Positions 31,401-43,400 of a stretch of 64,000 nt of DNA are shown here, piece after piece. The position numbers and the translations under genes were made by a program. Below the pieces are notes generated by a model, which was not told the DNA's origin, did no database searches, and worked only from the letters and a program-made list of their open reading frames with translations. Source of the DNA: Lineus longissimus (taxonomy: Eukaryota; Nemertea; Pilidiophora; Heteronemertea; Lineidae); the NCBI RefSeq assembly GCF_910592395.1, contig NC_088324.1:11620953-11684952 (forward strand), in the 5' to 3' direction. Each line of letters starts with the position of its first letter. Position 1 is the stretch's first letter.

Positions 31401-34400
31401 ACCACCTCATTCACAGGGGCAGCCAACATCCCCACAGCCACAGCCAGGGATGAGGGCAGGACAACCACCACCAATGTGGGGATATGATCCCAGGACATGG
31501 GCTGGTATGGCACCCCATCCTCACTTCATGGGAATGCCTGGTGGACCAGGTAGGCCACCCTTGGACATGCAAGGTATGTGTAAAACATTCAGTTTCATGA
31601 ATTTTTTATTCCATTTATAAATTTGATGAGGAAGTAGTACTTGCTCATGTTTTCTCTCTTGACATTAGTGTTTCAGGATGTATGGGCCAAGTGATGATTT
31701 GAAATAATCTTCCGCAGTAGAAATACAAAGAGGACAGGATATCACCCACCGGTCTGATGGCCAATCAATTTTACAGTACCAAATTCTGCGTGTTGGGAGA
31801 AATACCCCAAAAATATCTAAATGTTTATGTGAAATTTTCTGGGGAGTTATAATTGATTCAAATTTTAAATAGGCATGCCAATGCATCCGCCACCGATGAG
31901 ACGGCCAAGAAATGATAGTCACAACTCTGATCACGACGGAGAACGTCGCACGCCTGAAGTGATGTACGAACGTGGCTTCTACCCAGCGCCACCCGGTCCA
32001 TATGACGAGCAGATGAGGCGAGGACCCCCACCACCTCACTACTTTGATCAGAGGTACCCACAAGAGTTTGAACGAAGGGAGTTCAATGACAGGTAGGATC
32101 CTATTGGGACAGATAAGACTGCTGATGGAAAATGTGAGAATAAAAGTTTCAAATTCGAGTTAAGTTTGCTATGATGTTATGTATATCTGTCAATCCAATG
32201 ATTATTTTGTGATTCTATCTAAACACTGAGCAAACAAAAAAAGATGCCTTTGTGACTTGGCATATTTGGACCATGCCAATGGAGTCATTGGAGATACTAT
32301 TACTTCACACAATTTCTTTCCCGTCATAGGTCTTAAAGATGTATTGATTAAACTTTCAGGGATTATGACCGCTATGGCAACTATCCTGGTTATGGTGAAC
32401 GAGAGCGGGGAGATGGTGATGAAACGGAGCGCCAGTCTCCAAGGGACGCTACCCGCCTTAAGGATGACCGACCTCTGAGGGACAGTAGATCTCCACGAGA
32501 CCGCAGTGATAGCGAGAGGAGTGTTGGATCACCACGTGATTCAGGTCGTCATGAGAGTCGCTCGCCAAGAGAAAAGAGGGATTATGAACCCAAACGACCG
32601 CCGCCTGTCCAGAAAGATCCATTTGATGACGCGCAGCAGGATCGAGACAGAGGAGAGAAGGATGTTCATCGGGAGTTGCACTTTGAACGTGAACGAGAGG
32701 AGAAGTCCGCAGAGAAGGAAGTCAAGAAAGGAAGGTAGGGATAGCTAAAGAAGATGAATCGGATCTTTGGGGGGAGGGTATGGTGCTGGCGGTGCTGCCA
32801 TCTACATTTTATGGTCAAATTAAAAAAGCTTTGTTCCTTAACTCTTTACATACGCTAGACCCGCGTGCGTCATAGCGTCAAAGTCCTGAATACACAGCGT
32901 CATTATTCTGATATAGTTTCCCGGGAGCGCGTCACTGAGGCGGCCGTATTTCAGGTAGTGTTTACATAAGTGATATTATCTCCGTTGCTGTTCATAGTAC
33001 AGGACTAAAATTTTCGGGAGTAACTAAGAATTAAATTCCGCATAAACTCATGTAATTTATTTTGAATTCTAACGAAAAGTAACCGAGAACAAGGCCTGCA
33101 AACTTGGAGAGAAAAAAATTTCTACAAATCGCCGTAAACACAAAATGTTTATAATAAAAATCTAAGTCCCAGTCACTATCATCACTTCCTACCGAAACAT
33201 TGATATCTGAATCTGCAAAACCTTCAAATTCTGATCAGGAGCTCGAATCAAATAAATCTATCATAAATAAACCCAGCTGGTCCCGAACAATGCGGCACGT
33301 CAATCAAAAAAAAGATTAAAGAAACGTTTAAAAATGGCCGACGAGGTCAACTTCCTGGGGAATCCCGCCAATACATCGTTATTATTCATGCCTCATGAAT
33401 ACTAAATTAGAACGGAGTGACCTGAATAGAAAATAGAAGCTTATCTCTTATTGGCCATTCAAATAGGGTCACCATGGAGCCAGCCAATAAGAAATTACGA
33501 TACATTAAAGTTGGAGTAGCTTGTAGTCGGCTTGCCGGAGTTTCGCACTGTTTGAATGGAGCCGAGTAATGGCGGCTCCTGGGAGAACAGCGCAAGTTCT
33601 TTGCGCCGACCAGCGGCGGCTAGCGTATGTAAAGAGTTAATATTGATTGGATGTCACGAATAATGTTAAATCCTAATTTCGATCTGTTCTTTTCCAGGGA
33701 TCATTCCCCACCTCCACGACAAGAGAAAGACAAAGATGATCTGTTAGATCACCATGATAAGAGTTTTGATGATGATGTATCTCCATCGCTAGAGACCCAT
33801 TGGAGGCAGCCTGATATGCGTGGTCACAGAGATCATGGTCACGGCCGTGGAAAACGTAAGTATGGTTCTGTGAAATGATAACGGGATGATTCATTACTTT
33901 CAAAACTGAGCAAACTAGAAAAAATCAGCTGCTCTTTGGTAGTTTTCTTGACAGATCTTTCATCAATATCTTTCTGTTTTCAGGCCGAGGGGAATGGCAC
34001 AATGCTCCACCCCCAATTGCGCACCAACAGTCGCAGCAGAATGTGCCAAACCGTTCAAACTATACCTCGCTGAAAAGAAGTGCCTCAAACCTCTCAACAG
34101 GTTCAGGGTCAAATGATCGTAAAACTGACTCGCCAAAAGACAACGTACCTTCACCCACGAGTAGCGTGGAGAAAGGACCCTGGGGAAACCCACATAAGCC
34201 CAGCGTACAGAAGGAAAGCAAGGATTCGCTGAGGGAGGGCCGCAGTCGGGACAGCCCAAAGCCACAGTTGGTTGAAAAGATTGGAAAATCTTCTGAAAGC
34301 AAAGAGGAGGATAAAGAAAACAAGTAGGTTCCCATGATTATATCTGTCGACATGCATATCTGCATTTGCAGATTGTTTCATGACTCTTTCAAAGAGGTTT

Positions 34401-40400: not shown

Positions 40401-43400
40401 GAGAAGGTTGAACCTATTCAGCTGCCGTTCAAGGATTTTATGTTGACCAAGGTAAAGAGAGAAAACGTGTGCTTTTCGATTTGCTGTTTTTGAAGCTTCC
40501 TGGCTTGAACTACTCTCAAGGAAAGAAGCTGTTTCATGGGAATTTAACTCAGAACCACCCAATCAGAGATGTCTGGCACTCGACCAACTAACACAACACC
40601 AGCACATGAGATGAGTCTGCTTTCAGAACAGCGACTGGCATATTCTCTGCTTCGAGGACAGAAATTAGAAAGGTGCTTATCTGAGTCAAATGTCAAATCG
40701 ATAGATAGTATCAAGATAACTTCTCGCTTGCATGTGTTGTTTTGTTTCAAATTTTGTTGCTTCCCCTCCAGGGTGAAGATTCCTCTGATATCAAACTCGA
40801 TTTCACCTTCGATGCTGAGCTGGCCAAACTGACTGAAGAGAAGAATGAAGAAAAATTGGGCAACATCAATGAAGACACCAAGAACATGTCTATGCAAGCA
40901 AACAGCAATGAGGGCATGAATGGTATCCAGTCGCCCACGTCGCCTGCTGCTGCCGATCTCAACCTGAAGATCCAGTCGGTGAAAAACGTCTGGGAGAACA
41001 GCTTCTCGGCTGTCTTTGATGGGAGGTAAGTTCAAAAGAGGACACTGTTTGATGCACAAGAAAAACAGTTCCTTCACTTGGTGGTTGTGTTTTAGTCCGC
41101 ATTTGTTAGGTTTTGGTACGGTATTGGTTCTTTTTCACTCTCTGCAAGTCTTGGGTTAAATTTTCTCGGCACAATTGTTTTCTGATGTATTAAATCCTTC
41201 AAACAAGAATGACCATAAGTTTTTGACTCTGGTTGGTTTTAAAATGTGTTCCTGTTTTACTAGGTTTTATTTTTAGTAGGTACGTATTTTATACTGGCCT
41301 GAATGTTCAGTGAATTGTCACGAGTTCAATGTATCTTTATATTCCATTCATTTCCGCTTAACTACACATCTCACTGCACTTGGCATAGATTTAAAATTTC
41401 AGGATATTCATTGTTTCCTTACATTGGAAATCCTTTCAGTGTAGTATAGGCCTCTGATTCCGAATTGGAAGCATAAGAATTTTCTTTAAAGAGGTTTTAA
41501 GCATCCACGAATGGAACTTTTGGTTCTGTAAATGCGAGAAATTTTGCAAGATTGTCCACTTTTACGGCAGTCATAAAATTATTTATTGCTTGCATGTTCC
41601 CCAAAAAACTTAAAAATAGTGGTGACTTGGAAGCTATGAAAGAAAAGATTGTCCATTTCAGAAGTCTGGAAAGGCCCTGATTCAAAAAAATGATTAAAAA
41701 GACGTGTTGGTCTTTTATAACTATAACATCTCTCCTCATTTCAGTATGACTAGTAGCACCTCTGCCTCTGCAACTGCCGACGCTGAAAATTTAGACAGCA
41801 TCACATCAACCACTTCAAGCAGTGCTCAAACCTTCATGAACTTCACCTCCAGCATGGAATCATCCACCAGTATCTATGGCAACATCTCAAACAGCTCTGA
41901 CGTTACCAACGACAACACCAACACCTCACAGGCGTTGTCAAATTCACCACAACCTTTCATGAGTTTTACAAACGGGATGGAGGTGCCTGCTTCGTCGGAT
42001 AATCAGTCAAAAGCTGTATCGATGGTCAGTCTAGATACGTCTGTTCAGGATTCATTGGAGCACCTGACCCCATCGCCTCGTGGACATTCACAAGAGCTAC
42101 ATGCAGATGCCAACGTGTTTATTGTCTCTGGTACGGTCCCAAGTACCCTGACGACATCGACGCCCGCGTTTGTCCCAAAAGCCTCCCAGTCGGAACCCAC
42201 AAATGTATGTAAGGTGAGGCACTTCTCGTCGAGACAACTGGAGTCTGTCAGTGTTGATGTAGTGACAGTTTTCTCACTGTGGGTCGTGCAGGGTGGCTAA
42301 TCTTGGGAGGTAGGCCACCATATAATGACCCAAGAGAACACTGGTAATAGTCTAGATGTGTTCAGTGTATTCCCAGCACTTACATGTAGTCGATTAAAAA
42401 AATACCTGGTTGGTGAAACGTTTAATGTTTTTTTGCAAATAATTTTCAACAGAATGGAAACACAATTTGCTCAGTTTGAAAGCCTGCAGTTTGACTGATT
42501 GTACCAGATCTATTTCCCAAGTCTGGTTGTGATGTGACTTTGGTTGTCTCTGTGAGAAAGTGGCTTTGTTTTTTTTTCAATATACTAGCATTTGTTTTCA
42601 CCTACACTAACCCCTTGTGCATTTGCATGTTATCCTCATCGATAAAATATACAAACACTCTACACCTGTGTTTGAACCCGTCGCTAAAATACTTGTTGTG
42701 CTGCTATAGTTTGCAATGATGCCTTTTGTATAATCTGTCAATCCAATGATACAGAATGATTCAAACATATACTCTGAGCAAACTAAGCCTGTCTGTCTGG
42801 CGAAACTGAAGAGATCATAAAGAATAATAATATCATCTTAAATGAGGTGAAATCCATAACAATCGTCTGGCATCTTGAAGATTTAAACCATGTGGTGTAG
42901 GTGTGGATGACTCGTTTTGCCAGGACAAATGGTGAGAAGGACCAGGCCTGTCTTGAGCTTCAGTAAAAAAAAGTGCGGCTTTGACTATGTCTACATGTTT
43001 TCTTCTTTTATCTTCCAGGTTAAACCCCAACAACACCAGCACTATACCTCCTCTCAGACATCCCATTTCAACCCAATGGGCTCGTCAAGCATGTCCGGTC
43101 TCTCCGGCATGTCGAACATCTCGAGCATTGCAGGAAGTATAGCTGGCATGTCGAACATCTCAAGTTTATCTGGGATGTCAACCCTGTCAGGAATGTCAGG
43201 TTTGACTACAATGTCAAGCATGTCTGGTATGGGTGTCTCCACTATCCCGAGCCCTCCGGTTATGTTGCCTTCGTCACAGTACCAACCATTCATGGGGACA
43301 TCGCAGCTTATCACACAAGAAACCAGGGTAGGTTGATCAACATCGAAGTTAAAGTGCCGTTGGCCTTGTAGTCTTGATGTTGGCCAAGTGATGATTTGAA

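Follow-up and report, generated by a model that had tools for sequence, protein, structure and literature searches.

A four-copy family of SNORD110-type box C/D snoRNA candidates in introns of a Lineus longissimus PRRC2 gene

SNORD110 is a box C/D small nucleolar RNA (snoRNA) that we take to be identical with HBII-55, its host gene NOP56 presumably being the same as NOL5A. SNORD33 and snR55 are, we assume, the guides for position 1326 of human 18S rRNA and position 1269 of the yeast molecule, respectively. SNORD110 is listed with NOP56 as host and 18S U1288 as target in PMC5025248, and a chicken HBII-55 homologue, for which one isoform is tabulated, is placed in NOL5A intron 6 with a 13-nt 5′ guide for 18S-U1246 (PMC2653536). 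A competing guide, SNORD13H, is predicted for the same human site U1288 (PMC12408296). In a table in PMC11542601, human 1326 corresponds to Um1269 in yeast and to Um1273 in Arabidopsis; for human Um1288 the Arabidopsis counterpart is Um1235 and the yeast column is empty. Here we describe a 64-kb stretch of the genome of the nemertean Lineus longissimus (the window), in which four introns of a PRRC2 gene carry one unit each, all in sense, of what we call family A. These units are very probably SNORD110-type guides for the uridine of 18S rRNA that corresponds to human U1288. An original prediction for this stretch had instead read them as SNORD33/snR55-type guides for human Um1326, and had contrasted their PRRC2 host with RPL13A, the vertebrate host of SNORD33.

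The four segments lie where the original prediction had placed them, and each contains a C box, a D box and a terminal stem. All were matched by a motif scan (RTGATGN, CTGA and a stem of at least 5 bp). Intron numbers are valid only for the PRRC2 model described below, because the 5′ coding exon has not been located.

32164..32235, + strand: A1, putative SNORD110-type box C/D copy in intron 8 (32093-32359); Rfam SNORD110 32.9 bits; motif scan match
34439..34515, + strand: A2, putative SNORD110-type box C/D copy in intron 11 (34324-34775); Rfam SNORD110 34.4 bits; motif scan match
35894..35968, + strand: A3, putative SNORD110-type box C/D copy in intron 12 (35744-36064); Rfam SNORD110 29.8 bits; motif scan match
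42708..42784, + strand: A4, putative SNORD110-type box C/D copy in intron 21 (42214-43018); Rfam SNORD110 37.8 bits; motif scan match
32185..32201, + strand: A1 guide and D′ box, ATCTGTCAATCC + A + ATGA
34463..34479, + strand: A2 guide and D′ box, from a pattern search of the window
35917..35933, + strand: A3 guide and D′ box, from the same pattern search
42733..42749, + strand: A4 guide and D′ box, from the same pattern search

The D box is CUGA (CTGA in the DNA) in all four units. The C boxes read ATGATGT in A1, GTGATGA in A2, GTGATGT in A3 and ATGATGC in A4; compared with RUGAUGA, A2 agrees at 7 of 7 bases and the other three deviate at the final base alone. The guide AUCUGUCAAUCC is invariant and precedes a degenerate D′ box, AUGA. 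When as many as 3 mismatches are tolerated, the two strands of the window hold the block ATCTGTCAATCCWATGA four times and no more, where 0.54 occurrences were expected, and none of 100 shuffles gave four. The motif scan returned seven matches on the plus strand, comprising the four A units and three of the four units of a second family (family B, see below), and one overlapping, chance-like match on the minus strand. In 40 base shuffles of the plus strand the same rule gave a mean of 0.475 matches and a maximum of 3. A chance origin of family A is ruled out by the motif-scan and pattern nulls.

Over the eight positions of the terminal stem in the four copies, pairing is kept in 30 of 32 cells (93.8%), compared with 21.9-43.8% when the partners are slid, and half of the pairs (4/8) are altered on both sides. 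The pairing percentage and covariation score were matched by 2 of 500 shuffles, four double-changed pairs by 81 of 500 and the number of pair types by 324 of 500. The covariation is therefore helpful but of limited statistical weight, because there are only four sequences and many shuffles match their double-changed pairs and pair types. Folding of the single strands was mildly better than that of shuffles (z -0.59 to -1.85). By their stems the units fall into two pairs, A1/A4 with GUUUGC/GCAAAC and A2/A3 with GUCUAC opposite GUAGAC or GUGGAC.

Five eukaryotic rRNA loci of other organisms (L038-L042) served as a stand-in for the 18S rRNA of the worm itself. The guide of A2 and A3 pairs with 18S at 16 of 16 positions (one of them G-U) in four of these loci and at 15 positions in a row in the fifth, and the guides of A1 and A4 are without the pair adjoining the D′ box. 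Two elements of the original prediction thus hold on these loci, namely that the guide is antisense to the 18S segment AGGAUUGACAGAUU, and that the guided nucleotide is the first U of AUUG, facing the fifth nucleotide upstream of AUGA. The name given to the target does not hold. Both landmarks were found in four of the five loci, and there the U in GGUGGU*GGUGCAUGG follows the guided U at a distance of 38 nt; counted from UACCUGG, the two uridines fall at 1231 and 1269 in L041 and at 1228 and 1266 in L040. Since the same offset of 38 separates 1288 from 1326 in human and 1235 from 1273 in Arabidopsis, the guided U is the equivalent of Um1288, not of Um1326, and precedes the SNORD33/snR55 site by 38 nt. 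The D-side guide showed no conservation across the four copies, and therefore no second target is claimed. The stand-in loci themselves come from four records with bacterial-genome titles and from one contig of a viral collection, which points to contamination or mislabelling; searches of viral contigs with eukaryotic rRNA words gave 0, 1 and 0 matches.

The comparison with Rfam points to the same site. The original prediction had suggested a scan with Rfam models as a check, and such a scan of positions 31900-43000 (E up to 10) returned box C/D families, with SNORD110 (RF00610) first for all four A copies at scores below its cut-off. The SNORD110 consensus has AUCUGUCAAUCC in common with the copies, in a matching register ahead of the D′ box, and the C and D boxes are shared as well; the likeness extends to the stem (UUGC/GCAA) in A1 and A4 only. 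SNORD110 differs in its D′ box, which is CUGA rather than AUGA, in its NOP56/NOL5A host and in the number of copies, which is four for family A. The identity first proposed, in which family A would be homologous to SNORD33/SNORD32 (RF00133) and yeast snR55 and would guide human 1326 or yeast 1269, has in our view hardly any probability, barring a rearrangement of this part of 18S in the worm. The box C/D class is the same and the 18S stretch is nearby, but the SNORD33 model found no match to the family A region at E up to 10, its consensus has a different guide (CAUGCACUACCA ahead of the D box), and the target nucleotides are 38 nt apart in four of the five loci.

Several observations weigh against the SNORD110-type reading. 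All four copies score under the SNORD110 gathering cut-off (29.8-37.8 versus 64 bits), and a scan of the window at gathering threshold returned no Rfam family. For A1, snoR53Y scored 31.8 bits and so nearly equals SNORD110; with other C/D families this close, the score owes something to general C/D features. In the copies the D′ box reads AUGA, not CUGA. Searches with exact 18S words did not find the 18S rRNA of the worm in the assembly: AGGATTGACAGATT occurs at six places, two of which are A2 and A3 and four of which do not read as 18S, and GTGGTGCATGGCCG occurs at three places, none reading as 18S. Rfam at gathering threshold gave no match over 14 stretches of contigs C20-C30. Finally, classical snoRNA spacing to the branchpoint is 40-50 nt, and measured to the 3′ splice site the eight units considered here, those of family B included, lie 87-347 nt away; A1, A2 and A4 are at 124-260 nt and A3 is at 96 nt, beyond the classical distance. 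Many expressed snoRNAs are reported to exceed that distance, with stable terminal stems playing a role (PMC10234308).

As SNORD110-type guides, the family A RNAs would be expressed, released from the spliced PRRC2 introns and assembled as stable RNAs with fibrillarin, NOP56 and NOP58 into small nucleolar ribonucleoproteins. The guide ahead of the D′ box would pair with the worm's own 18S rRNA and, through the fifth nucleotide upstream of AUGA, direct fibrillarin to its target, the uridine equivalent to human U1288, which fibrillarin would then 2′-O-methylate.

The distribution of similar sequences was assessed in the whole assembly (391,118,348 bases in 30 contigs). The SNORD110 model gave 13 matches at E up to 10, in a search that scored 65 of 46257 first-look candidates, and only the four A copies stood above background (E 4.8e-4 to 0.07, with E of at least 2.8 for the other nine). 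At the same loose threshold, 12 of 14 prokaryote control genomes also yielded matches, none above the cut-off. Near-identical repeated units on contigs C2 and C15 (L012-L019) were weakly SNORD110-like, at about 24 bits each, but lack a D box in register, and were taken as background. Within the window, a family model built from the four A copies (R1) matched those four and one further site at E 0.88. One fragment may be an additional relic.

33874..33917, + strand: possible relic of a family A unit in intron 10, comprising its 3′ part; guide and 5′ stem absent

Aligned locally to A4, this fragment scores 28, which was reached by none of 500 shuffles; shuffles scored as high in 0.6% of cases against A1 and A3 and in 29.8% against A2, an alignment that is unremarkable. 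It was reported neither by the Rfam scan of 31900-43000 nor by R1. It may be a fifth A copy that has decayed to its 3′ part.

A relic of this kind would be in keeping with non-functional or mobile repeat copies that merely resemble snoRNAs. We consider that explanation very improbable, as the genome search, in which 65 of 46257 candidates were scored, recovered four matches rather than many, all four copies are in sense, and guide and D box are retained despite divergence elsewhere. Summed over pairwise comparisons, identity is 98/102 in the guide and D′ box and 24/24 in the D box, against 33/42 in the C box, 63/96 in the stem and 82/195 in the remaining interior. Between the host introns, similarity is confined to the family A unit and ends at its borders. 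The copies may have spread among the introns of their one host gene; for human C/D families, copies within one host are attributed to cis recombination (PMC8178906).

The host gene was assembled by hand.

27857..46083, + strand: PRRC2 host gene as modelled, 27 exons up to the stop codon; 5′ coding exon or exons not located

The original prediction had named PRRC2 as host, and the model confirms it. A single frame of 2949 codons runs through the 27 exons, whose junctions all have AG/GT (26 of 26), and residues 1-207 match BAT2_N (PF07001) at 104.9 bits. A homologue search with 1589 of the 2949 residues retrieved PRRC2 proteins; within the best 12 of 120 matches, those that carry a name come from molluscs. 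Two other introns of the gene contain features of their own. In intron 9 (32838-33640), about 800 bases are flanked by inverted TTAACTCTTTACATACGCTAG ends, as judged by eye, and resemble the remnant of a short DNA transposon, and intron 24 (44210-44601) holds a direct duplication of about 190 bases with 94-95% identity at a spacing of 212-213.

Because the probable identity is SNORD110 and not SNORD33, the comparison with RPL13A falls, and the relevant vertebrate host is NOP56. A PRRC2 gene is not without precedent as a snoRNA host. SNORA38 belongs to the H/ACA class, and SNORD62 presumably lies in PRRC2B, although a literature search did not confirm this. SNORA38 is hosted by human PRRC2A (PMC5025248), which makes a PRRC2 gene the host in both cases, for a different RNA in human. 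In the open-licence literature, PRRC2 and SNORD110 were found together only in that breast-cancer study, and hosts of invertebrate SNORD110 may still be known; a search there for snoRNA host genes in Nemertea listed no paper on Nemertea.

Family A may share a common ancestor with vertebrate SNORD110. An alternative that concerns descent only, and overlaps with the explanation preferred here, is that the PRRC2 copies converged separately on the same 18S site. The different host and the Rfam scores below threshold are in its favor, and plants are listed as methylating this site too (PMC11542601), which suggests that more than one guide lineage may exist. A1 and A4, on the other hand, match the SNORD110 consensus in the stem (UUGC/GCAA), in the D′ register and in the guide, and we regard separate origin as unlikely while still granting it real weight. 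It is far less plausible that family A serves mainly to control the splicing or dosage of its PRRC2 host rather than to methylate rRNA: intronic snoRNAs that act on their own host are on record (PMC10324135), but the invariant part of family A is the 18S guide.

Alongside the SNORD110-type copies, a second set of units of about 80 nt, family B, occupies four further PRRC2 introns, again in sense.

31684..31763, + strand: B1, second C/D-like family, intron 7; motif scan match
38469..38548, + strand: B2, second C/D-like family, intron 15; motif scan match
39343..39422, + strand: B3, second C/D-like family, intron 16; missed by the motif scan, under whose rule the stem falls short of 5 bp
43380..43459, + strand: B4, second C/D-like family, intron 22; motif scan match

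C and D boxes are present in all four, and a stem of at least 5 bp in three. Common to the units are AGUGAUGA, CUGA, a stem of the GGCCA/UGGCC type and GAUAUCAC(C/U)C(A/G)CCG before the D box; through G-U pairs, both variable positions of this guide could retain pairing with a single target. Family B is probably a C/D family. When the genome was searched at the DNA level (E up to 10), at least four matches were returned, the count being a lower bound; each lies within PRRC2 in sense orientation, nothing beyond the B copies was listed, and a dispersed repeat was rejected on this result. In the window, a fuzzy pattern for the family picked up all four B units plus an unrelated stretch of 52 bases on the minus strand. 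Folding was clearly better than that of shuffles for B2 (z -3.76), with values of -0.33 to -1.62 for B1, B3 and B4. An Rfam scan of B3 alone (121 bases) returned no family at cut-off, the nearest being SNORD83 (RF00137), which likewise has a GCCA/UGGC stem and, ahead of its D box, UAUCACCC; with a score of 18 bits, where the cut-off is 35, and an E of 0.29, this is no evidence of kinship. No convincing target was found in the five rRNA loci, in which 28S is partly covered. Against 18S, the best pairing runs over 10 consecutive positions, many of them G-U, and has a mismatch adjacent to the methylation position; it is no better than background. Antisense matches to family B within the window occur at the B copies themselves only.

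The observation of family A is genuine and well constrained, and its kind is known; the surprise is modest, residing in the different host, the four copies and a companion family that has no name. It appears to be a spiralian case in which a conserved rRNA methylation guide is carried in four copies by a host gene other than that of vertebrates, with the methylation site and the host comparison, both misidentified before, now corrected. Family B and the possible decayed A copy are new relative to the original prediction, and family B adds to the PRRC2 intron set a companion four-copy C/D-like family without an Rfam match. Taken jointly, PRRC2 might be a dedicated C/D host with at least eight snoRNA genes in eight introns, family B might act without a vertebrate counterpart on an unlisted rRNA site, a small nuclear RNA or an mRNA, and the Um1288 guide might have switched host between NOP56 and PRRC2 in animal evolution; we offer this combination tentatively, as a doubtful conjecture.

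Two further features lie outside the host gene. Downstream of PRRC2, exons at 54085-59673 match the TROVE and Ro60 vWA domains and mark a Ro60-like gene. On the minus strand, 3877-7867 contains repetitive open frames in which a peptide around RTVSTRDTEFTTSLQSNRSKLW recurs, and the recurrence of this peptide indicates a repeat array in the DNA.

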